Shown here in pieces: positions 6,733 to 25,261 of a DNA stretch of 25,261 nucleotides. Position 1 is the stretch's first letter. The number at the start of each line of letters is the position of its first letter. The notes beneath the pieces are model-generated. The model did no database searches. It worked only from the letters and a program-made list of their open reading frames with translations, and was not told where the DNA came from. Both the position numbers and the translations under genes were made by a program. Source of the stretch: a virus; the IMG/VR virus record IMGVR_UViG_3300031999_003250, positions 1 to 25,261 of that record; one strand, given 5' to 3'.

Positions 6733-7626
6733 ATGGCGAACACATCACGTGAGAATGCTTGCAGATACCTCGACAGCCAGATGGTCCCGCCGATGCGGTA
6801 CGCCGCGATCGCGCGCGGGCTCTACAACAAGGTAGTCACCCTCCCGGCCGGAAAGACCAGCGTGGACTTCGACACAATTTCCGAGATGGGCGATGCCCTG
6901 ATGGAGTACCACATCCCAACGGGAGACATGGGATTCGACAACATCAACGTCATACCGACAGTCCTCCGCGTCCCCAACATCTTCAAGGGATGGAAGCTGG
7001 AAAGGGCGGAATTGAACGCCTACCTGTCCGAGGGGAAGCAGATTGCGGCCGAAAGCGCGATCTCCGCAATGTACGTCATGCTCAAAAAGGAGGAGAATTT
7101 CCTTCTTCAGGGCTGGTACAATCCGGCCGGCACGAAGCTCCTGGACGGGCTGTATTCCGGGGCCGGCAACGACTACGCGACCGCAAAGGCCTTCTCCACC
7201 GATGGCCTCCCCACTGACGCGGTCCTCGGAGGACTGGCCCTCAACGACGCGGACGGCGTCCCCCCCATGAATTACAACCTGATCCTCAACCCGACACAGT
7301 TCAGGCTCCTTCAGGCCAACGTCTCGACCACAAGCAACTACAATGAGATGGAAAATATCATGAAGATCCTCAATCCCATGCCCGGGCTTCAGGGAAGGAT
7401 CATCAACGATGCCAAAGGAAACATCGTCGCGGGGACCGGCCTTCTGGTGCCTGTCGATGTGACCGGCGCCTTCTTCGATCTGGTAGTCTGCGAGCAACCG
7501 CAGAACATCTTCGCAAACGAGAAGTGGCCCGGAAAAGGCCCGATAGAGGCGATGGTCTTCGAGGCGATAGTCCCGAGGATCAAACAGGCAGTTTCCCTCT
7601 GCAAACTGTCCAATATAAGCGGGTAG
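6733..7626 (+). CDS. Major capsid protein (HK97 fold)
   Basis: 297-aa shell protein. Position after scaffold and decoration protein, length and sequence pattern all fit HK97-fold capsid proteins: an N-terminal helical region, a long central domain containing MNYNLILNPTQFRLLQ (the NL-L-P segment common in this fold), and a C-terminal strand-rich end IEAMVFEAIVPRIKQAVS. AGGGGG precedes the ATG. Codon choice is strongly C-ending and biased, as expected for the most highly expressed gene. A GC-rich hairpin follows the stop. Confidence 0.88.
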   Translation: MANTSRENACRYLDSQMVPPMRYAAIARGLYNKVVTLPAGKTSVDFDTISEMGDALMEYHIPTGDMGFDNINVIPTVLRVPNIFKGWKLERAELNAYLSEGKQIAAESAISAMYVMLKKEENFLLQGWYNPAGTKLLDGLYSGAGNDYATAKAFSTDGLPTDAVLGGLALNDADGVPPMNYNLILNPTQFRLLQANVSTTSNYNEMENIMKILNPMPGLQGRIINDAKGNIVAGTGLLVPVDVTGAFFDLVVCEQPQNIFANEKWPGKGPIEAMVFEAIVPRIKQAVSLCKLSNISG

Positions 7627-10844: not shown

Positions 10845-11181
10845 TCTGGTGGCTTACGAAGGCACAGGCGAGGCTATGGAAATCTCCATACCCGCATTCG
10901 GTTCGGGTTACACCATATCTGATATGGTCACAGACCATAGTTTTAGAACCAATGATATTATGGAATTTTCCACCACAGAAATGACACCCGGGACGCCTTC
11001 GGACATCTTAACCGGGCATTATGCCAACAACGGTTCGATGGTCATTAATTACGCGTACGCGTGGCCGCTCGAGAGCGAGGTAAAGAACGGTGTAACTTAC
11101 GGAATAACAGCCGAAAGAACTGGAACCTATACTGGAAGCGGGTCAAGTGGCTATTCGCGGGGGCGTGTTATAAATGGTTGA
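10831..11181 (+). CDS. Hypothetical 116-aa beta-rich protein
   Basis: Not recognised. It starts at ATG 10831 inside the previous gene and overlaps the first fibre gene by 8 bases. The sequence is Gly/Ser/Thr-rich with no charged helices and no cysteines, so it is likely a beta-structured virion or fibre-associated protein. The final 30 residues (TGTYTGSGSSGYSRG) are flexible and Gly-rich. Confidence 0.6.
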   Translation: MALADLVAYEGTGEAMEISIPAFGSGYTISDMVTDHSFRTNDIMEFSTTEMTPGTPSDILTGHYANNGSMVINYAYAWPLESEVKNGVTYGITAERTGTYTGSGSSGYSRGRVING

Positions 11182-11950
11182 AGTATTGAAACAATCTACC
11201 GTCAAGAACAAAATGGTCTTCATGACGGATTCCATCGATCACATTACAGGTAAAGCGAGTTTGACGCTCACCATCACCGCCTCCAAAGATGGAGGCGCCT
11301 TTGGCTCCATCACCCCATCGGTGACAGACCGTGGAAGCGGTTGGTACAACCTCGCTTTGACAGCGAGCCATACCGACACATTGGGTGATCTGGCGATTCA
11401 CATCACATCAACGGGGGCAGACCCAACTGATCTGTCAATGCTGGTAGTGGCATACGACCCGGCCTCCGCAACGAATCTGGGACTGTCCTATCTATCCGGG
11501 TCGGTTGCTCTCGATTCCACAGTCGCAAAAGACTCAACGGTCGCAAAGGATAGCACTGTGGCGAAGGAAGCCACACTTGGAACCAAGATACCGACCAATC
11601 TATCGTTCACCGGCGCGAATGTGAACGCTGAGAGCAAGGTCACCGCACCTCCCGCTAACATGGCCCTCGAAAGTGCCGGGGTATTGGATGAGATTCAAGA
11701 TGTTATAGACCTTAACTTGGATGCCAAATCGTCCGATATAGCCGCCGTACTGGACAGTGTACTTCTGGATAGCGAATTTATTAGAAGGGTATTGACAAAC
11801 AAGCGGGAATGGGATGCCGGTAACTCGAGGTGGGCTATCTATGATGACGCTGGCACTTCCATACTTTACTACCTCCATGTGACCACTCCAAGTGGCGGTC
11901 CAGTCACACTCGACACTACTGCGATAGCAAATGGAGATAAGATTGCTTGA
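11174..11950 (+). CDS. Short fibre protein A (Ig-like head, repeat shaft, conserved C-terminal domain)
   Basis: 258-aa fibre. Residues 1-95 form a beta-sandwich domain common in phage fibres and baseplates (KMVFMTDSIDHITG, then LTLTITASKDGGAFG and GWYNLALTASHTDTLGDL). Residues 114-131 contain three copies of DSTVAK, a short shaft repeat. The C-terminal 50 residues carry WDAGNSRWAIYDDAGTS and end in ANGDKIA. Both ends are clearly paralogous to the 521-aa fibre B at 13107, which differs mainly in shaft length. It is followed by TTGA overlap with the small Gly-rich protein. Confidence 0.8.
   Translation: MVEVLKQSTVKNKMVFMTDSIDHITGKASLTLTITASKDGGAFGSITPSVTDRGSGWYNLALTASHTDTLGDLAIHITSTGADPTDLSMLVVAYDPASATNLGLSYLSGSVALDSTVAKDSTVAKDSTVAKEATLGTKIPTNLSFTGANVNAESKVTAPPANMALESAGVLDEIQDVIDLNLDAKSSDIAAVLDSVLLDSEFIRRVLTNKREWDAGNSRWAIYDDAGTSILYYLHVTTPSGGPVTLDTTAIANGDKIA
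11513..11566 (+). repeat. Three 18-base repeats encoding DSTVAK
   Basis: Three tandem units code for DSTVAK-DSTVAK-DSTVAK in fibre A, followed by a fourth degenerate unit (EATLGTK). The protein repeat is exact but the DNA copies differ at synonymous positions, so the repeat is old or selected at protein level. It probably forms a short trimeric shaft. Confidence 0.75.
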
Positions 11951-12138
11951 CCATAATCGGACATGGATATGGCGGGAAATATGCGACTCCTATAAGTCAT
12001 GGTTACGGTAGTCTCGTCTCCGGTGGACCCCCGCCCGTCTATCTATATCGCGAAATATGGAATGACACCCCCGTCTCCAATGACATCTACAAGCCGATGG
12101 CCGTGAACGCAGGGACCGAGAAATTCAATGGGGGCTGA
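11947..12138 (+). CDS. Small Gly/Tyr-rich protein, copy A
   Basis: 63-aa protein from TTG 11947, overlapping the fibre A stop (TTGA). The first 30 residues (MTIIGHGYGGKYATPISHGY) are Gly/Tyr/His-rich and match the start of the 51-aa protein at 14669 in both composition and order, and each follows a fibre gene. The remainder contains PPVYLYREIWNDTPVSND. Probably a fibre-associated peptide; function unknown. Confidence 0.6.
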   Translation: MTIIGHGYGGKYATPISHGYGSLVSGGPPPVYLYREIWNDTPVSNDIYKPMAVNAGTEKFNGG

Positions 12139-12140
12139 AC

Positions 12141-13106
12141 ATGGTCAAGCCAATAGATGCCGATTGGAGAAACATAAGGAGCATCGACTTGGACCATGAG
12201 GCCATCAGGCTATCTCAACATATCGAGAGGCGCAATAAGATTTACAAGAATTGGCCCAAAGACCAACCGATACCAGAAACTATGCGCGTATCAGACCACA
12301 TAGACAGCATCAAGCAGACCATCAAGAATATTCAAGAGACAACCGCTTGCTATTCCTGTCCAAAGAGGCTCAAATGCAGATACCGGAATTGGAGGAAATC
12401 TTCCGAGTTTACCAAGGTCATTGGATGTAGTGGACATCCAGACCAGGGCAAATATCCGGGCCATTCCACCAATGTTCAAGTCTATGACTTGACATCTTCG
12501 GGCCAGTTGATGTTAACGAATGGGACGTGGTCCTCATGCAGAAGCGCCACGGACGCGGGTAGTTTCACCACCGATGCCATTGGACCAGCCCAAACATCAA
12601 CCGGGTATTATATAGCGCGCGGGGCGCATGTTTACGACTTGGATGATATACCAGCAGGGGCCGATTTTACCGATTGCGCCTTATTTGGATATGAGGCATG
12701 GTACAATGGATCCACCACAGGCTACACCCATTATAATGCAAGCCATCCAGAATCGTCACCTGTCTATGCAGACTATGACCAAACATATAATTCAGGAACG
12801 GATTACGGAACATTCAACACAAGTAGCGGTATAGGTTCTTGGAAACATTACCACTTCTCAGACCTGTCATTTCTAGTTGGTAATGCCATCAATACATTCT
12901 ACACAAGGGATTGGACCAGGGACGAAAATAATTCGACCCCTACCGCGAACGTCGGGGAGAACTGGGAGGGGCCGACAAACACCGGGGGTCATGATCCATA
13001 CCTGGACATAACCTATGATGACCCGGTATCATCAATCATAGGAAGGCGCTCCGGCCAAGTCGATACATCTTATAGGAATAGAATCGGTGGAAGGCAGGTG
13101 GCTTAA
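12141..13106 (+). CDS. Cys-module + beta-sandwich protein, copy A
   Basis: 321-aa protein. Residues 15-68 are helical. Residues 70-96 form the module C-X2-C-X5-C-X16-C (C70, C73, C79, C96) with the signature ACYSCPKRLKC and FTKVIGCSGHP. The same spacing and signature recur in the protein at 15684. Residues 110-298 look like a beta-sandwich of the kind used in carbohydrate-binding modules: an early RGAHVYDLDDIPAGADFTD segment and a final DPYLDITYDD. A basic tail follows. Four conserved cysteines suggest a bound zinc ion or Fe-S cluster. It lacks the FN3 and neck domains of its paralogue. Likely a virion adhesin; not identified further. Confidence 0.72.
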   Translation: MVKPIDADWRNIRSIDLDHEAIRLSQHIERRNKIYKNWPKDQPIPETMRVSDHIDSIKQTIKNIQETTACYSCPKRLKCRYRNWRKSSEFTKVIGCSGHPDQGKYPGHSTNVQVYDLTSSGQLMLTNGTWSSCRSATDAGSFTTDAIGPAQTSTGYYIARGAHVYDLDDIPAGADFTDCALFGYEAWYNGSTTGYTHYNASHPESSPVYADYDQTYNSGTDYGTFNTSSGIGSWKHYHFSDLSFLVGNAINTFYTRDWTRDENNSTPTANVGENWEGPTNTGGHDPYLDITYDDPVSSIIGRRSGQVDTSYRNRIGGRQVA

Positions 13107-14672
13107 ATGAGAGTCTGCAAGCAATCGACAGCGAGGCATATCATGGTCATGATGATAGACGATACCGACCACATATCGGGTTTGGCCGGACTCACCCTCA
13201 CCATAACAAGAAGCAAGAATGGCGGTGGATTTTCCACCATAAACCCCTCTGTTACAGACCGGAGCAATGGATGGTACGACATTGAAATCTCGACCACAGA
13301 CACCGACACGCTCGGTGATTTGTGCCTTCATGTAACTAGTACTGGAGCCGACCCCACCGACATCTGCATGCAGGTCGTAGCCTACGATATGGATTCCGAC
13401 ACTGATCTGGGACTCAGCGATTTCGGGGATATTAAGGACCAAACAGATCTACTCCCCGCCTCGCCCGCGGGCGTGGGAGATCAGATGAACCTCGCCAACG
13501 CGTCCATCACCAATGAGAAATTCGCGGCCGGCGCGATAGATGAAGACGTGATAGACGATGGTTCTTTGACCGCCGATAAATTCGCCGCGGGCGCGATCAC
13601 GTCCGCGAAGATAGCCGCGGGCGCGATCACAGTTACACAGGCACCAAACCTGGATGCCGCGATCTCCACCCGAGCCCCGGAATCCGGCGGGAATATAGGG
13701 GCAATAAAGGACCAAACGGATCTCCTCCCCGCTAGTCCGGCCGCGACAGGGGATTTGATGGGAATTACGGATGGGGGGATCACAACCGTCAAGTTCGCCG
13801 CCGGCGCCATAAACTCCACAGTGGCCCCAAATCTCGATGCCCCGATCTCCGATTGTGCCTTGGAGGATGGTGGAAACCTCGCCGCGGTCATGGCCAAGAC
13901 CGATAATCTCCCCGCCAGTCCCGCCGGAGTGGGAGATGAGATGGCATTAACGACAGATTATGACGCCGCAAAAGCCGCGGCATCCCAATCCAGCGTGAAT
14001 ACGATCGATGATTCGGTGGATCTCATTCGCTCAACTGACATCCCCTCCATTCAGGCTGTTGTGGATGGTATCCAGGATACCGATCTTCCGGCCGTGAGGT
14101 CGGATACCGTGGGAATCAAGGCCAAAACGGACCTTATTGGGGCATCAGTGGCCCTTGAAACCGGGGGTAACGTCTCCACAATCATGGCAAAAACCAATAA
14201 TCTTCCAACTACCCCCGCCGCAACCGGGGATGAAATGGCCCTCATAAGCACCTATGATGCCGCGAAAGTGGCATCATCCCAAGCCAGTGTGGACTCTATT
14301 CAGGATGTTGTGGATAATATCCATGATACGGATCTGCCAGCCGTTCAATCCACCGCCAACTCCATCCAAGCAAAAACCAACAATCTTCCACCATCGCCAG
14401 CCGCGACAGGGGATGCCATGACATTGACAGGGGCATATGATGCCGCAAAGGACGCCGCGGATCAATCATCGGTCGATGACCTTCAGACGGGATTGGATTA
14501 TCTCAGAAGGACTCAGACAAACAAAAAGATCTGGGACGCCGCCAACTCGAGATGGGCGATATATGACGATACCGGCATTTCCGTAATCTATTACCTGAAA
14601 GTATATACCCCATCCTCCGGCAATGTGGTCTTGGGGTCGAACGCGATCGCGAGTGGAGACAAGATAGAATGA
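13107..14672 (+). CDS. Long fibre protein B (paralogue of fibre A)
   Basis: 521-aa fibre. The first 95 residues (KQSTARHIMVMMIDDTDHIS, then LTLTITRSKNGGGFS and GDLCLHVTSTGADPTD) and the last 50 (WDAANSRWAIYDDTGIS to ASGDKIE) match fibre A. The 370-residue middle is a shaft of repeats widely seen in phage tail fibres: KFAAGAI units and five copies of an LPASPAGVGDEM-type unit, three followed by a YDAAK segment. The start ATG follows the previous TAA directly. Expected to trimerise and display a tip, or to act as collar fibre given its place before neck genes. Confidence 0.82.
   Translation: MRVCKQSTARHIMVMMIDDTDHISGLAGLTLTITRSKNGGGFSTINPSVTDRSNGWYDIEISTTDTDTLGDLCLHVTSTGADPTDICMQVVAYDMDSDTDLGLSDFGDIKDQTDLLPASPAGVGDQMNLANASITNEKFAAGAIDEDVIDDGSLTADKFAAGAITSAKIAAGAITVTQAPNLDAAISTRAPESGGNIGAIKDQTDLLPASPAATGDLMGITDGGITTVKFAAGAINSTVAPNLDAPISDCALEDGGNLAAVMAKTDNLPASPAGVGDEMALTTDYDAAKAAASQSSVNTIDDSVDLIRSTDIPSIQAVVDGIQDTDLPAVRSDTVGIKAKTDLIGASVALETGGNVSTIMAKTNNLPTTPAATGDEMALISTYDAAKVASSQASVDSIQDVVDNIHDTDLPAVQSTANSIQAKTNNLPPSPAATGDAMTLTGAYDAAKDAADQSSVDDLQTGLDYLRRTQTNKKIWDAANSRWAIYDDTGISVIYYLKVYTPSSGNVVLGSNAIASGDKIE
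13425..14420 (+). repeat. Shaft repeats in fibre B
   Basis: Five diverged copies of an about 20-residue unit (K-QTDLLPASPAGVGDQM and variants) begin near 13425, 13701, 13887, 14181 and 14363. Between the first three lie four KFAAGAI/KIAAGAI units. DNA copies differ at many synonymous sites but share blocks such as GCGACAGGGGAT, so homologous shortening or lengthening of the shaft is possible. Confidence 0.75.
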
Positions 14673-14824
14673 GTGTGCTAGGTGGAGGATTTGGAGGAAA
14701 CGCCGGCGGTTTCTCCCCGGTCAGCCAGGGCTATGGAAATGATGCCGGCCCCTTGGATGATCAGATCTCCATTTGGAATACTCAGGCTGTCTGCTCGGAG
14801 ATTCAAAGGAAGGTGAATTTGTGA
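14669..14824 (+). CDS. Small Gly-rich protein, copy B
   Basis: 51-aa protein that starts with ATG overlapping the fibre B stop (ATGA) and ends with TGA overlapping the next GTG start (GTGA). The first half, MSVLGGGFGGNAGGFSPVSQ, matches the corresponding small protein after fibre A (11947) in Gly/aromatic pattern. The second half differs (ISIWNTQAVCSEIQRK). Its conserved position after each fibre argues that it is a real gene, probably a fibre accessory. Confidence 0.6.
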   Translation: MSVLGGGFGGNAGGFSPVSQGYGNDAGPLDDQISIWNTQAVCSEIQRKVNL

Positions 14825-15642
14825 CGACTCAATCAGAGATACCGAAAGTTGGAGATTTGAATGTCAAGATAGGCGCGATAATATACAAACAGGGATCGAT
14901 ACTTGACGTCTCCACCTCCACGGTCAAGCAGATAAAGGCCCAAAGACCGGATGGCACCTATGCTTGGACAAAGACGGCCTCATTCGAAACCAATGGAACG
15001 GATGGCAAGATATATTATTCGACATCCTCGGCGTCCGATCTTGATCAGGCAGGGACATGGACATATCAGGCATACATAGAAATTGCCGGCGCCTCCCTAA
15101 ATTCGGATCCCGAGACATTCGAGGTCGGGGAGGCCATAGCTGTAACCCTGACCAAATACATCACATACGATGACGTCCTCAGATATACCGGCACCAGCTA
15201 TGATGAGCAGGACATACGGGATATGATAATCGAGGCGGAATCCGAATTGGAGGCAAGAATATCTGCTCTCGGGCTCACCGCGGATCCCTCATCCAATCTC
15301 CTGAAGGGCGCCGTCCGTGACATCGTGACCGTCCACCTCCTCAATCGCGGCAGGATGGATGGATCAAAGCCCAGGCAATTGATAACCGGGAACCTGACCA
15401 TGATGGACGATGTCGATGCACACATAGAATACCTTGATACCAGGATTCAGAGCAAGATCGATCTATTCGGTTCCTTGGAATCCGGTAAGTATGTCCAAAC
15501 AGGGGATCTGGACCAGACATCCCTCGAGGAAACGGGCGAGAGGGCGGATCATGAGATGCCTCAATACAATTTGGATCAATCAACGATTCGGGAATACCAT
15601 GATAAAGCCGAAGATACAGGGAACGATGACCCGGATGATTAG
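14821..15642 (+). CDS. Ig-like domain fused to head-tail adaptor (neck) protein
   Basis: 273-aa protein from GTG 14821, with an AGGAAGGTG ribosome binding site upstream and GTGA coupling to the preceding gene. Residues 10-102 are an Ig-like domain common in phage baseplate-upper-type proteins (QIKAQRPDGTYAWTKTASF, then LDQAGTWTYQAYI). Residues 112-215 match the helical head-tail connector family (HK97 gp6/SPP1 gp15 type): ITYDDVLRYTG, then DIRDMIIEAESELEARI and LKGAVRDIVTVHLLNRGRMD. The C-terminal 50 residues are acidic and probably disordered. The adaptor would bind the portal, so its Ig domain would be displayed at the neck. Most adaptors are near 100 aa, so the fusion is unusual. Confidence 0.78.
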   Translation: MTTQSEIPKVGDLNVKIGAIIYKQGSILDVSTSTVKQIKAQRPDGTYAWTKTASFETNGTDGKIYYSTSSASDLDQAGTWTYQAYIEIAGASLNSDPETFEVGEAIAVTLTKYITYDDVLRYTGTSYDEQDIRDMIIEAESELEARISALGLTADPSSNLLKGAVRDIVTVHLLNRGRMDGSKPRQLITGNLTMMDDVDAHIEYLDTRIQSKIDLFGSLESGKYVQTGDLDQTSLEETGERADHEMPQYNLDQSTIREYHDKAEDTGNDDPDD

Positions 15643-15683
15643 GGGGAATTGAAACGGCATACAAATTCGATATCGACAAACAT

Positions 15684-17150
15684 GTGGAGGACTACCAGAA
15701 GATACTCGATAGTCTCCCCGATCATCCCGACAGATCCAAGAATCATCACCCCGAAAAGGATGCGCGCTTCGATGAATTATCAAAAGAGATGCTTGTCAGC
15801 CCCGAGGTCTATAAATCGAGGATTGAGAAGACGATCGAGGACAATAAGGAAAATACAGCTTGCAGGACCTGCCCTCAGAATGGAAAATGCAAGAAGATAA
15901 AATGGGACAAGGACCATTCGTTCATCAAGGTTACCGGATGTAGTGGACATCCGAATCAAAGAAAGTTCCCCGGCAAATCCGTAACTGTCGAGCTTACCGA
16001 CAACGTCTATGCCGGTTTCAATGGGACATGGGAGAATAGTTGGGTCGGGGTCCGTAATGGCACCTTTTCGGTGTTTATACAATATACGTATGCCCAGGGG
16101 TTGGCGGCAAAGAGTGGCAGTATATATTATCTCTATCGCGGGCTCACATTCTGGAACACGGATTTCATCCCCGATGATAATGCTGTAAACTGGTCGATAC
16201 TGAAATTGTTCTGCCCCGCCAAATGGTTGGAATACTCCACAAGGAACGCGACTTGTATTCTGACCACGACCGGAAACATCCCACCAACCACCAGCAATTA
16301 TAATAGGTTGTTGGATTTGTTGGAGGTCGCATCGATAGATTATGCTTCGGTAATAATCGGCGTTTACAACAATATCACACTCCCCCCATCCTGCATAAAT
16401 AAAGTCGGATATACGAAGCTCCATCACAGGCACTCCGGCGATGTGGATGATGAGGCGCCCCCATCCAATGGTAATTGGGGGGTGGATTTCGAAGGTTCAA
16501 CGGGCGCCCATCCACCCAAGCTCGAATTGAATTACTCGGAATATAATACCCCATCGGCGCCAACCGACTTGGCCGCGGTCGGGTATGATCGGGGAATAAA
16601 GCTGTCATGGACGCCTCCAACGGAAACGGGGGGAGGGGACTTACTCGGATACAAGATATATGCCGGAAATGGCCCGGACCCGACCACACTTCTCAAAACG
16701 ATCGGACCATCGGAGACAACCTGCGAGTTTCCAATTTCCAACAGGAAAACGAGGTTCTACCGGGTGACGGCGATTGGACCCGGGGGGGATGATAGTCCAT
16801 ATTCCAACGGTGCATATGGAAGATCCGCGGCGAATGCACCCGATGGATTCGTGAGAAGACACCTGATAGAAACGGTGACGATCCGCCCGCGCGAGGGATC
16901 GTCTGGGAGTGGAAAACCGCAGTACGGGGACGGCATAGATGTATATTCAAGGGTCCAGTATGCATCGAAAAACGCCAGGGACAACCGGGGAGAAACCATC
17001 CTTTCCAAATGTCAGATCCAAGTGGATGGCTCGGTAGATGTAGATAGCGAGGGCGCCATAGAGTTTCCAGATGGGAAGATCATGCCGATCCTCGAGGTGA
17101 GGGAATATAAGGTGAACGCCGTCGCATGGATGAAAGAGATATATACATGA
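15684..17150 (+). CDS. Cys module + beta-sandwich + FN3 + head-closure (stopper) protein
   Basis: 488 aa from GTG 15684. Residues 60-86 carry the C-X2-C-X5-C-X16-C module (C60, C63, C69, C86; TACRTCPQNGKC, FIKVTGCSGHP) shared with the protein at 12141. Residues 98-285 resemble a carbohydrate-binding-type beta-sandwich ending in PPKLELNYS. Residues 290-378 are a fibronectin type III domain (PSAPTDLAAVG, IKLSWTPPTE, GYKIYAG, FYRVTAIGPGG). Residues 388-488 fit head-closure/stopper proteins (VTIRPR, YGDGIDVYSRVQY, ILSKCQIQVD, IEFPDGKIMPILEV). Homology with copy A extends upstream of GTG 15684 (FDIDKHVEDYQ versus IDLDHEAIRLSQ). ACG 15654, seven bases after AGGGGGA, may be the true start, giving 498 aa. 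Its place between adaptor and gp10-like gene supports a neck role. Confidence 0.75.
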   Translation: MEDYQKILDSLPDHPDRSKNHHPEKDARFDELSKEMLVSPEVYKSRIEKTIEDNKENTACRTCPQNGKCKKIKWDKDHSFIKVTGCSGHPNQRKFPGKSVTVELTDNVYAGFNGTWENSWVGVRNGTFSVFIQYTYAQGLAAKSGSIYYLYRGLTFWNTDFIPDDNAVNWSILKLFCPAKWLEYSTRNATCILTTTGNIPPTTSNYNRLLDLLEVASIDYASVIIGVYNNITLPPSCINKVGYTKLHHRHSGDVDDEAPPSNGNWGVDFEGSTGAHPPKLELNYSEYNTPSAPTDLAAVGYDRGIKLSWTPPTETGGGDLLGYKIYAGNGPDPTTLLKTIGPSETTCEFPISNRKTRFYRVTAIGPGGDDSPYSNGAYGRSAANAPDGFVRRHLIETVTIRPREGSSGSGKPQYGDGIDVYSRVQYASKNARDNRGETILSKCQIQVDGSVDVDSEGAIEFPDGKIMPILEVREYKVNAVAWMKEIYT

Positions 17151-18142: not shown

Positions 18143-19069
18143 ATGGCGAATCACATGCCCGGTGACTTGGGAATGGGTACTTTCAGGGATGAGGCTACAC
18201 CCGGTGTAATACAAACCGGCGTCCGGTCTTGGCTAGGTTCCAGCGTCAGGCTGAAGAATGATCGTGATGACGGGGCCACATTCGTCATCCTGCCCGGGGA
18301 TCGCAGTTATGGCGCCGTCCAAAGAGGCCCGACAAAGAACGGATGCACGCTCGAGTTTCACGGCCGGGGGGCTTCAACATATGGGGATTGGCGGGACTTC
18401 ATCGCATATTACGGCTTCGGGGGCAGGAACGCATGCACCGCCGCCCTCGACACCTTCACCCTCATAGTCTATGTCACCAGCAGGGCGAAGTATGAGGTAT
18501 ATACCGGATGCAAGATAAACAAGGTGACAATAACCGCACCCGGCCCCGGGAAACTGCTCGAGTTTTCCGTCCAGATCTTCGCGATGGACCATTCAATAGA
18601 AACCTCGCTCGTCATCACCGACATACAGAACATAACCATAGGCGCCGCCCCGACCGAGCCGTCCAGCTCCTTATTGTTCTGGGCCAACAATTGCCAGGTG
18701 AATCTCGGAGGGGGCGGTTTGACCACTCAGTATTTCCAGAAATGGGAGCTTTCGGTGGACAACCATCTCGAGAGGGTGGAAGGAGTGAAGACGTGGTATG
18801 ATGGAACGAAACACCAGCAGACCGTGGAGCTTCACGAAGGTGAGAGAGAGGTGACGTTCGATGGATCCCTCAGATTGAAAGACCAGACGTGGGACGCCGC
18901 GAAGATCGCCGGCACAAAGATAACGGCCCTCACCATACCCATCGATGATGACACAGTGACCCTCTCCAACGGGGACATCGTTCCAACCGAATATACGGAT
19001 CTTCAACAGAAGGCGGGAGAGGACCACCTGATAGTCAGGTTCCCGAATAATGGCCTAGCGATCGCGTAG
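18143..19069 (+). CDS. Major tail tube protein
   Basis: 308-aa protein with GGAGGG upstream of ATG 18143. It follows the terminator and precedes the chaperone, the conserved place of the tube gene in siphoviruses. The sequence is almost entirely beta-structured, with segments KNGCTLEFHGRGASTYGDW, LIVYVTSRAKYEVYTGCKIN, LLEFSVQIFAMDHSIE, YFQKWELSVDNHLERVEGV and VTFDGSLRLKDQTWD, consistent with a tail tube fold, perhaps with two related halves. It forms stacked hexameric rings. There is no separate sheath gene, so the tail should be non-contractile. Confidence 0.78.
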   Translation: MANHMPGDLGMGTFRDEATPGVIQTGVRSWLGSSVRLKNDRDDGATFVILPGDRSYGAVQRGPTKNGCTLEFHGRGASTYGDWRDFIAYYGFGGRNACTAALDTFTLIVYVTSRAKYEVYTGCKINKVTITAPGPGKLLEFSVQIFAMDHSIETSLVITDIQNITIGAAPTEPSSSLLFWANNCQVNLGGGGLTTQYFQKWELSVDNHLERVEGVKTWYDGTKHQQTVELHEGEREVTFDGSLRLKDQTWDAAKIAGTKITALTIPIDDDTVTLSNGDIVPTEYTDLQQKAGEDHLIVRFPNNGLAIA

Positions 19070-21684: not shown

Positions 21685-24029
21685 TGGCCAATCCAGAGTC
21701 ATATCCCCGGGAAGCCTATCTGAAGATCACCAGCAAAGGCACCGCCGGGTACATAGAAATGCGGGAGAACAATTCATCATTCCTCATAGATTACGAATTG
21801 TCATTCTCCGAAAACTTCCCGAAGGTCTTGACAGTGGTACTCGACAATGCAAACATCGTCTCCACGGTGAACATTCTCAACTCATCCTGCGCGCGCTGGT
21901 CGGGAGGAATAACGGGAGCATTGAAGCAGGGAGACATAGTCAAATTCGGTTTCTATCGGACGGGGACATCCACCATAGACTATTACTTCGATGGGACGGT
22001 TAAAGAGCTTAAACCGGGAGAGAACGGAAGACTGACGGTTGTTTGCAAGGATAGATTGGACAGGCTCGATCACATCAAGAGGGACACTATCATCTACAAC
22101 AAATACAAAAAGAAAACTAAATGGAGCATCACATATGAAAATGGATACCGGAGACTCAATAATTTCACGGATACGGATGTGGTCTATCCATTCGAATATC
22201 TTGCATATTGTTCGGCCCTTCATACTGAAGAATATGGCGCCGGCGTTCTCGGGGGAGGATCTGGAATATTGGACTTGGGCTTGAGCTTGAATAACAGGGT
22301 AGCACAGTCATTCATCGCGACCGGGCATATGATAAGTCACATCTATTGCGAGTTTAGCCTGAACACCTATGGCCCGGGAGGGGGCGGTCCTTCATATGAC
22401 ATTACATGCAATGTCCATCGCGACAATGGAAACTCTCCCGGTGCGATATTCGGAAGTGATATGAAATTCAGGGGATTGGAAACCGGAAATGGCCAGTGGA
22501 TCGGGACATTCGATGTCAATACACCTGCGCCCCTGCTCGCGCCCGGGGAGAAATACTGGATAGTATTCAAGGCAACAGTGGTCGCGGGGAATTGCATCAT
22601 CCAAGGAAATGCGCCCGGGACAACATACAAAGAGGATGCCCAGAAATCAACTGATGGCGGAGTGACATGGTCGAAGGTGACCGGTCCCCCCCATCTCCAA
22701 CTCCATTGCAAAATGACCCAATACGATTTCCAGGAGTTGGAACCAAATCAATATTATTTCGATGACACCAACAATATCGTTTGGCTCTATGGCGATCTGA
22801 ACATTGCCGCAGACATAGCCATGATCTCCTATTTCCAATTGTATATATCCTTGGAGGATGTCTTCAAAGCCCTCATAAAGATGAACACCTTCATGCTCGG
22901 GAATGTGAATGCATACATAGATTTCTTATTGAAGACATATTCCACACAGGGCAAGACAGTCGGGGATTGCATGAGGGAGCTATGCAATATCTTTGAGACT
23001 ACGGCCCCTTGGACCGGCCTTCAGCATGCGATGGCTCACTATGTGGATGCAAATGGAATAAACCGATGCAAGGTCGGTTTCAGAATGAATACCACTTATA
23101 CCGAGGTACTGACGGCATCCTTCCCAGAGGATAGGCCATCCAATACCGATGAGTACATAATCGTGGGAGAGCCGAGATTGCAGAAGACGGATCGGTATAA
23201 ATATTCGGAGGTCATAGTTGTAGGCCAGGATATCCCGACCGGAAGGCCATTGATATGCTGTCGTTCCGATAAGGCACTTAGCTCGAGCTACTGGAAGAAG
23301 GTGGATGGCCAAATCGGGACAATGAAGGTATCGAGGCCGGATCTATGTGATCTGGGGATGGTGAACGCCGAGGCTTATCGTCTCCTGGATGCCGTGAGCA
23401 GGGATCTCTGGGAGGGCTCCATCTCCTTGTCGGGGCATCATCTCGTTTGCTGGTCCACAGATCCGACCCAGGACGATTACGGCGCCGGAAGATTGATCAA
23501 ATTGTATTGGTCCCCGATGGGGATATCCGCCGTGAAATTCAAGATAACACAGATGGTGATCACCCCAACGAGGACTGAAATATTCGTGAACAATGTCGAT
23601 CCCCTGCTCACGAATTATGTGACACAATCATTCGGCGCCTTGGGCCGTCTCGATTCGTATATGGCACCTGTCGGTCTTGTCGATAACATCTACATCGAGA
23701 CATACAGCGATTCTGTGATCACATCGGACCACAATGTCTATATGAAACTCTATGATGAGAATAATGTGGTTCTCACATCCCATGATCAAGCCTTATGCAT
23801 CAGATTCGATTCTCCCAATTACAACGCGATCACATATCATGCCGAGTTTGAAAAGGGGAACGGCTATTCAGATCAGTTGGTAAGGTATGTTGAATTGAAT
23901 ACCATCGAGCATGGCCAGTTGGCGAAAATAGATCTGAGAAGAACGACGAGCAGTATCGAGATAGATGAACGGGCTCGCAAGACCGACACCAACAGGCTGA
24001 TAGTCGAATTGACCGCAAAGAGAGCTTGA
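21684..24029 (+). CDS. Tail hub (Tal/gp27-like) with inserted carbohydrate-binding-like domain
   Basis: 781-aa protein from ATG 21684 (TAATG overlap). Residues 10-135 look like the first hub domain of Tal/gp27-type proteins (FSENFPKVLTVVLDNANIV, GDIVKFGFYRTGT, DGTVKELKPGENGRLTVVC-KDRLDRLD). Residues 203-345 are an insertion resembling lectin-like modules found in many secreted and tail proteins: RVAQSFIATGHMISHIY, NGNSPGAIFGSDM, APGEKYWIVFKA, STDGGVTWSKVTG, HLQLHCKM. The hub fold seems to resume with YISLEDVFKALIKM and KTVGDCMRELCNIFETTAPW. The C-terminal 150 residues may hold another beta-sandwich. It closes the tail tip and may bind the cell surface. Confidence 0.75.
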   Translation: MANPESYPREAYLKITSKGTAGYIEMRENNSSFLIDYELSFSENFPKVLTVVLDNANIVSTVNILNSSCARWSGGITGALKQGDIVKFGFYRTGTSTIDYYFDGTVKELKPGENGRLTVVCKDRLDRLDHIKRDTIIYNKYKKKTKWSITYENGYRRLNNFTDTDVVYPFEYLAYCSALHTEEYGAGVLGGGSGILDLGLSLNNRVAQSFIATGHMISHIYCEFSLNTYGPGGGGPSYDITCNVHRDNGNSPGAIFGSDMKFRGLETGNGQWIGTFDVNTPAPLLAPGEKYWIVFKATVVAGNCIIQGNAPGTTYKEDAQKSTDGGVTWSKVTGPPHLQLHCKMTQYDFQELEPNQYYFDDTNNIVWLYGDLNIAADIAMISYFQLYISLEDVFKALIKMNTFMLGNVNAYIDFLLKTYSTQGKTVGDCMRELCNIFETTAPWTGLQHAMAHYVDANGINRCKVGFRMNTTYTEVLTASFPEDRPSNTDEYIIVGEPRLQKTDRYKYSEVIVVGQDIPTGRPLICCRSDKALSSSYWKKVDGQIGTMKVSRPDLCDLGMVNAEAYRLLDAVSRDLWEGSISLSGHHLVCWSTDPTQDDYGAGRLIKLYWSPMGISAVKFKITQMVITPTRTEIFVNNVDPLLTNYVTQSFGALGRLDSYMAPVGLVDNIYIETYSDSVITSDHNVYMKLYDENNVVLTSHDQALCIRFDSPNYNAITYHAEFEKGNGYSDQLVRYVELNTIEHGQLAKIDLRRTTSSIEIDERARKTDTNRLIVELTAKRA

Positions 24030-24032
24030 TTC

Positions 24033-24092
24033 GGGAGATGGCTCAACTCTGGGCAGGGCCGGTCCATCTCCCAGGGGCTCAATCGCCCCGGG
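24033..24092 (+). terminator. Paired hairpins after the tail operon
   Basis: GGGAGATGG at 24033-24041 pairs perfectly with CCATCTCCC at 24064-24072 (9 bp). A second stem, GGGGC at 24074-24078 with GCCCC at 24085-24089, follows at once. The hairpins begin 4 bases after the hub stop and are followed by an AT-rich stretch, as expected for the end of the structural operon. Confidence 0.5.
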
Positions 24093-24106
24093 ATTAATAT
24101 ATTAAT
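24093..24106. promoter_or_regulatory. AT-only 14-bp palindrome (possible operator)
   Basis: ATTAATATATTAAT is a perfect 14-bp palindrome. It lies about 30 bases before the TATA palindrome of the next gene, in the most AT-rich stretch of the window. It could be a repressor site or a TATA-like element; no binding protein is identified. Confidence 0.35.
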
Positions 24107-24136: not shown

Positions 24137-24150
24137 GAGTATATATACTC
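24137..24150 (+). promoter_or_regulatory. Palindromic TATA promoter for the Cys-rich gene
   Basis: GAGTATATATACTC is a perfect 14-bp palindrome with a TATATATA core centred near 24143.5. At archaeal spacing, transcription would start near 24170, which is exactly where a stem-loop leader begins. Being symmetric, the core could also recruit TBP in the opposite direction, but no minus-strand gene is seen there. Confidence 0.45.
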
Positions 24151-24169
24151 GGCCAGATAATTACCATAC

Positions 24170-24247
24170 ATCCGGCCGTACACCGGATGGGGCTCCCGGC
24201 ACCCTGGGGGACGCTTTCCATGCGCCGTCCCCCTAAAGTCGCATGGA
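24170..24247 (+). promoter_or_regulatory. Structured 5' leader: hairpin plus H-type pseudoknot
   Basis: From the predicted transcript start, ATCCGG (24170-24175) pairs with CCGGAT (24183-24188). Next, GGGGGACG (24206-24213) pairs with CGTCCCCC (24226-24233), and the loop of that stem, TCCATGCG (24217-24224), pairs perfectly with CGCATGGA (24240-24247). Two 8-bp stems crossing in this way define an H-type pseudoknot with loops CTT and TAAAGT. It ends nine bases before ATG 24257, next to the ribosome binding site, so it could control translation. Confidence 0.45.
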
Positions 24248-24256
24248 TGTGAAAGG

Positions 24257-24487
24257 ATGGACACGCAGAGTATCGAGCCGTTGGACATAGGGCCGAAGTA
24301 TCCCCCACCATTCAATACGGGGCATTTGGGGAACCCCCAAGGACTGAAATCGTGTTGTCTTGCCTGTCTTCTGAAACCGCATGATTGCACCAAACCCTGC
24401 AAGAAGACAAAGAAGGACAGCATCTGCGGGTCATGCGAAGATACCTGTCTCGATTTCATGAATAGATCTCTGGTCCTGCCAAAGTAA
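24257..24487 (+). CDS. Cys-rich 76-aa protein
   Basis: Not recognised. Eight cysteines lie in the second half: CCLAC at residues 33-37, then C44, C48, C57, C60 and C64, in a basic context (TKPCKKTKKD). This suggests one or two bound metal ions or an Fe-S cluster. There is no signal peptide or membrane segment. GAAAGG directly precedes ATG 24257. The gene appears to be on its own, with a TATA promoter and a leader that can fold into a pseudoknot. It sits between the structural operon and the terminase genes; a regulatory role is conceivable. Confidence 0.6.
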   Translation: MDTQSIEPLDIGPKYPPPFNTGHLGNPQGLKSCCLACLLKPHDCTKPCKKTKKDSICGSCEDTCLDFMNRSLVLPK

Positions 24488-24887: not shown

Positions 24888-24919
24888 TATATAAATACAT
24901 CATAAAACAGTATAAGGTG
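24888..24919 (+). promoter_or_regulatory. TATA promoter and ribosome binding site for the small terminase gene
   Basis: TATATAAATA at 24888-24897 is a near-ideal archaeal TATA box. Transcription would start about 26 bases later, near 24919, giving a 5' leader of only a few bases. AAGGTG at 24914-24919 lies seven bases before ATG 24927, so it may be in or just at the edge of the transcript. Confidence 0.65.
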
Positions 24920-24926
24920 TGATAAT

Positions 24927-25261
24927 ATGAAACGGACGCCGGTTAATCCAGAGAATGAGGAGGAGATTGAAAAGTCCTTGGCGAAATTGGATCAACCGAA
25001 GAAGGGCGATCCCGTCTTCACAAAGGGTAATTGGTCCCTATCAAAGTTCACCCCAAACAATATTGCAATCATCCTCAACAAGCTCCTGGAAGGATATCCT
25101 CTCAACCTCGCGCTCGCGGAAGCCCGGATAACACTGGCGACATATAAGCATTGGAGCCAGCAATGTGACGCCGGCGTCAAACGGTATGGATCCTTCAATG
25201 AAGTAATAGAGATAGCAAAGGGGCGGGGAGTTGCCCGTCTCCATAGGCAATTGCTCACCCT
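24927..25261 (+). CDS. terS: Probable terminase small subunit (3' end cut by window edge)
   Basis: 111 complete codons, still open at the right edge. Residues 38-90 have the helix-turn-helix pattern of phage small terminases: helix NNIAIILNKLLEGYPLNLAL, then AEARITLATYKHWSQQC, then a charged segment FNEVIEIAKGRGVARLH. Small terminases recognise the packaging site and deliver it to the large subunit, and they are normally encoded just before it. The large subunit is at the left edge of this window, which fits a circular or permuted molecule. It could instead be another small HTH regulator, since the C-terminal part is missing. Confidence 0.65.
   Translation, partial: MKRTPVNPENEEEIEKSLAKLDQPKKGDPVFTKGNWSLSKFTPNNIAIILNKLLEGYPLNLALAEARITLATYKHWSQQCDAGVKRYGSFNEVIEIAKGRGVARLHRQLLT

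Follow-up and report, generated by a model that had tools for sequence, protein, structure and literature searches.

We describe a candidate RNA element in the 25,261-base virus sequence IMGVR_UViG_3300031999_003250 (hereafter the window), which is a whole IMG/VR virus record, lacks end repeats and carries the gene set of a tailed virus. The genes include a terminase large subunit (TerL; 2-1573), a weakly matching portal (1537-2946), an encapsulin-like HK97 capsid protein (6733-7626) and a tail tube (18143-19069). The region of interest is flanked by the last tail gene, which stops at 24029, and by a small-terminase-like gene (TerS) at 24927; on a circular map of the record, TerS and TerL would be adjacent. 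The TerL frame reaches some 90 residues beyond the homologous part on its upstream side and remains open at the edge of the contig, which leaves its true start uncertain. Scored against the encapsulin family PF04454 (Linocin_M18), the capsid protein exceeds the Pfam cut-off. A tail-fibre cassette is apparently duplicated (11174-13106 and 13107-17150): the proteins at 11174 and 13107 seem similar at their N-termini, as do those at 12141 and 15684, which have a Cys motif in common (CxxCxxxxxC...GCSGHP).

Searches of IMG/VR with TerL, capsid and portal as queries yielded no close virus relatives, and the matches were to TerL only, plus portal in three contigs. A related head module was found in a prophage of genome G736 (L221:715-7457, corresponding to about 175714-182456 of G736:C4), which has in common with the window virus TerL (33-37% identity), portal (33%), capsid (about 40%) and two further head genes. 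Because of this module and the order of G736, which is also that of the Methanomassiliicoccus genome G003 (L104), the host is probably a methanogen of the Methanomassiliicoccales; the assignment to an archaeal virus, made earlier from the letters alone, is thereby supported. The region upstream of TerS in the G736 prophage contains no evident Cys-rich gene of the kind described below and no comparable pseudoknot.

The region of interest encodes a Cys-rich protein of 76 amino acids with 8 Cys (24257-24487, plus strand), whose frame scores as coding, unlike its other plus-strand frames. The protein matches no family and has no convincing relative in Pfam, PHROGs, NCBIfam, PDB, phages, viral contigs or 147 genomes of the Methanomassiliicoccales order; the matches are weak (E 0.002-0.1), several of them with internal stop codons. 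An AlphaFold model of the protein alone had a mean pLDDT of 55 and was unusable. Upstream lies a perfect 14-bp TATA-box palindrome, GAGTATATATACTC (24137-24150, plus strand), which is exact letter by letter as first described; the window contains two more 14-bp palindromes. Its centre lies 26-27 bp 5' of A24170, and from archaeal TATA spacing we take it to be the promoter of the Cys-rich gene; with this spacing, the message would begin with a 5' hairpin. A 9-bp inverted repeat, GGGAGATGG/CCATCTCCC (24033-24072, plus strand), directly follows the tail-gene stop and probably forms the hairpin at the 3' end of the upstream operon, with a putative terminator role. A further palindrome is located at 24093-24106. 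A second, putative TATA box, TATATAAATA (24888-24897, plus strand), precedes the gene at 24927, which points to the Cys-rich gene and its leader being transcribed as a short unit of their own.

The predicted 87-nt leader, on the plus strand like all its elements described here, opens with a 6-bp hairpin, HP1 (ATCCGG/CCGGAT; 24170-24175:24183-24188), which has a pair probability of 0.96-0.97 and may gain one extra C-G pair (24169:24189). It is followed by a weak hairpin, HP2 (GGGGCU/GGC-A-CCC; 24189-24204), which competes with an alternative "anti-S1" hairpin (24193-24199:24204-24210). Two 8-bp helices then cross each other: S1 pairs GGGGGACG with CGTCCCCC (24206-24213:24226-24233; stacking -20.2 kcal/mol), and S2 pairs TCCATGCG with CGCATGGA (24217-24224:24240-24247; stacking -16.3 kcal/mol). 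All 16 pairs are Watson-Crick, the loops are CTT (L1, 3 nt), C (L2, 1 nt) and TAAAGT (L3, 6 nt), and nine bases (24248-24256) separate the helices from the ATG at 24257. The 6-bp hairpin (24170-24188) that begins where the transcript is predicted to start, and the two perfect helices that end nine bases before the ATG, had been described in the sequence-only reading, and the description proved exact. It had also placed the helices in H-type pseudoknot order, in agreement with the geometry of the predicted helices (8 bp each) and loops (3, 1 and 6 nt) when judged by assumed loop-length minima. Only on the sense strand do the loop lengths fit an H-type pseudoknot; under the same rules no knot passes on the minus strand, where the loop roles swap and the 3-nt loop would need to span an 8-bp helix. 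We rejected a coding role for the leader on its codon scores and because it contains no start codon in the frame of the Cys-rich ORF.

With loop limits of 1-8 (L1), 0-3 (L2) and 2-12 nt (L3), S1 and S2 are the sole 8 x 8 crossing pair in the window, and likewise the sole 7 x 7 and 6 x 6 pair; 20 Markov copies of the window contained no 8 x 8 or 7 x 7 crossing pair. A 6-bp pseudoknot scan that allowed G-U pairs gave many chance matches and was uninformative. By a simple stacking-energy score under pseudoknot geometry, the site reaches -25.9 kcal/mol, compared with -15.2 kcal/mol for the next best in the window. In comparison DNA from viruses and archaea (2,696,518 strand-bases), no site reaches -25.5 kcal/mol and six reach -22 kcal/mol. 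Exact dinucleotide shuffles of the GC-rich 87-nt leader are the stricter control; scored without terminal A-U penalties (observed value -26.4 kcal/mol), 12 of 20,000 shuffles were as good (p = 6e-4). The nested, unknotted fold of the leader is of average stability (z = -0.07).

Relatives of the leader were sought in viral contigs, phages, Methanomassiliicoccales genomes and plasmids, and none was convincing. A single-sequence covariance model of the leader with S1 (R1) matched 29 of the 147 genomes at E <= 1, the best at 0.0019 per genome, which is about what chance gives over 147 genomes with E-values as rough as these; the corresponding model with S2 (R2) found nothing at E 0.05. Ten places were kept from R1, of which six had E 0.06-0.24 with R2 and four were missing. 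A pattern scan for the exact core gave no match in viral contigs. Single-sequence models are weak probes, so the absence of leader relatives says little about distant homologues. The Rfam covariance models gave no match in the window at the curated gathering score, and relaxing the threshold to E <= 10 for the leader brought up only two antisense matches at chance level, in line with the initial impression that the element is outside the known riboswitch classes.

The rarity of the arrangement and its sense-strand loop lengths are good evidence that the element is real, but this evidence loses strength because the target was freely chosen in the first-stage scan, where a reader could flag any pattern. 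The sequence-only reading held that such crossing helices are unlikely in non-functional DNA. The rarity part of this statement stands (12 of 20,000 shuffles; none in 2.7 million strand-bases), and it is tempered by the free choice of target and the average nested fold. The shuffles and the comparison DNA likewise uphold its proposal that the interval from a convincing archaeal promoter to a start codon holds a structure beyond chance expectation. That a GC-rich intergenic stretch, picked from many scanned windows, holds two accidental interleaved 8-bp inverted repeats is nevertheless the rival to be taken most seriously, and we rate it as unlikely though by no means negligible. Twelve matching shuffles in 20,000 are a non-negligible number across very many windows, the collections searched yielded no relative that could show conservation, and GGGGG and CCCCC runs are frequent in this intergenic region. 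Against chance stand the uniqueness of the site in the window and its absence from 2.7 Mb of comparison strands, its position exactly between promoter and start codon, and sense-strand loop lengths that satisfy pseudoknot geometry.

The best Shine-Dalgarno match of the Cys-rich gene is GGATGTGA (24245-24252, plus strand), which lies 4 nt before the ATG and pairs at -7.4 to -8.6 kcal/mol with the 16S 3' end of the Methanomassiliicoccales order, AUCACCUCC, as read from L104. The 3' arm of S2 covers the GGA at the start of GGATGTGA and thus overlaps the best anti-Shine-Dalgarno duplex, in keeping with the closeness to the ribosome-binding site pointed out in the sequence-only reading. Translational blocking may be partial, because the GUGA of the match and the ATG lie outside the knot. 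With a single assumed penalty of 9.6 kcal/mol for the pseudoknot and assumed loop-length minima, the knotted state of the leader is estimated at -40.7 kcal/mol, whereas the most stable nested fold has -36.2 kcal/mol. Extending the RNA into the coding sequence favours the nested ensemble, which is level with the knot at 24330 (best nested fold -56.5, pseudoknot -56.2 kcal/mol). The GGGGG arm of S1 has two rival partners, 24193-24199 (in the anti-S1 hairpin with 24204-24210) and CCCCC at 24301-24305 in the coding sequence; they may reflect a switch or mere GC-rich promiscuity. The segment 24205-24216, which includes the GGGGG arm, is 83% complementary over 12 nt to 24296-24307 of the Cys-rich coding sequence.

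Our preferred reading, held tentatively and at somewhat less than an even chance, is that the 87-nt leader acts in cis, through a pseudoknot, to keep translation of the Cys-rich gene in check. Its computed basis comprises the pairing, its rarity, the sense-strand loop geometry and the Shine-Dalgarno overlap; the start of the transcript, the fold inside the cell and the repression itself are inferred. Transcription would start near A24170, and the leader would fold into the 5' hairpin and then the H-type pseudoknot directly against the ribosome-binding site. The folded knot would occupy the GGA of the Shine-Dalgarno match and the space needed by the small ribosomal subunit and would therefore hold down translation of the Cys-rich gene until the knot opens. 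Several routes to opening are conceivable: the anti-S1 hairpin (24193-24199:24204-24210) might compete, the GGGGG arm might pair with CCCCC 24301-24305 of the coding sequence, a ribosome might pass through, or a protein or small molecule might bind. A "switch" that senses a ligand, metal or protein is speculation, as is an action of the Cys-rich product on its own leader, for which adjacency is the sole basis. We regard as a long shot the broader proposal of a new class of translational RNA switch in Methanomassiliicoccales viruses, in which an 8+8-bp pseudoknot, with its S1 arm exchanging among 24193-24199, 24226-24233 and 24301-24305, would control a viral Cys-rich protein.

Three other functions can be weighed against translational restraint by the pseudoknot. 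Packaging sites are often located upstream of small terminase genes, and the region is followed closely by the small-terminase-like gene, so that a protein might read the interleaved repeats in double-stranded DNA as an operator, packaging or recombination site near the terminase genes. Several palindromes nearby (24033-24072, 24093-24106 and 24137-24150) and repeats whose starts are 20 and 23 bp apart, roughly two turns of the helix, fit such a DNA-level site. We consider it improbable, given that the window holds no second crossing-repeat site, that the loop lengths suit RNA and that the location is inside a leader, at a ribosome-binding site. Still less probable is coupling through a leader peptide, in which a possible 10-codon uORF (24220-24252, plus strand; MRRPPKVAWM-stop) would be translated, unfold the knot and end 4 nt before ATG 24257, leaving the Cys-rich gene to re-initiation; the PP motif of the peptide could pause the ribosome. 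The uORF, which may be a chance occurrence, would use the GGGGG of S1 as its Shine-Dalgarno sequence (-7.2 kcal/mol, with strength and spacing like those of the capsid gene) and an ATG within S2. S1 would thus hide its Shine-Dalgarno sequence and S2 its ATG, and its stop runs into the Cys-rich gene's Shine-Dalgarno sequence. With several ATGs in the leader and GGGGG common, however, the arrangement is quite likely to arise by chance; the frame has no coding signal (leader f+2, -0.08 bits per codon), and a uORF alone leaves the perfect helices unexplained. The structured 5' end might instead shield a short viral message from 5'-3' exonucleases and leave translation unregulated, a role suggested by the start of HP1 at the predicted +1 and by the ability of most of the first ~78 nt to pair. 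This we judge very improbable, as a knot against the Shine-Dalgarno sequence would affect initiation too.

Small pseudoknots at the ribosome-binding site are known from preQ1-type translational riboswitches, a family to which the leader shows no match at the gathering score or at E <= 10. To our knowledge, few structured leaders with a regulatory role have been documented in archaeal viruses. The leader would work in a manner akin to that of the SAM/SAH riboswitch. In this riboswitch, which like the predicted fold of the leader is a compact H-type pseudoknot, the second (pseudoknot) helix contains the Shine-Dalgarno sequence, and folding hides the ribosome-binding site (PMC7367207). The SAM/SAH riboswitch differs in being bacterial and in having a conserved ligand-binding core and a shorter PK helix (5 bp), whereas the leader has no Rfam match, has longer perfect helices that are predicted to be stable ligand-free, and includes only the GGA of the Shine-Dalgarno sequence in S2. 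The T4/RB69 gene 32 translational operator also places a pseudoknot 5' of the Shine-Dalgarno sequence in a viral mRNA, and there the gene's own nucleic-acid-binding product controls translation: gp32 binding nucleates at the pseudoknot, over 40 nt upstream, and spreads cooperatively along a less structured stretch rich in UUAAA (PMC535899). In the leader, by contrast, the predicted knot abuts the Shine-Dalgarno sequence without a UUAAA-rich stretch, the Cys-rich product has no known activity, and the 9 nt from knot to ATG depart from the gene 32-like layout of a knot followed by a long, less-structured stretch with the ribosome-binding site. On the tests made, the leader belongs neither to the SAM/SAH riboswitch nor to the T4 gene 32 type, and for now it is a candidate from one orphan virus, clearly delimited and inexpensive to test. 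If our reading is true, a pseudoknot that acts ligand-free or under protein control at the ribosome-binding site of an archaeal virus would provide a concrete and easily mutated model of translational control in methanogen viruses.
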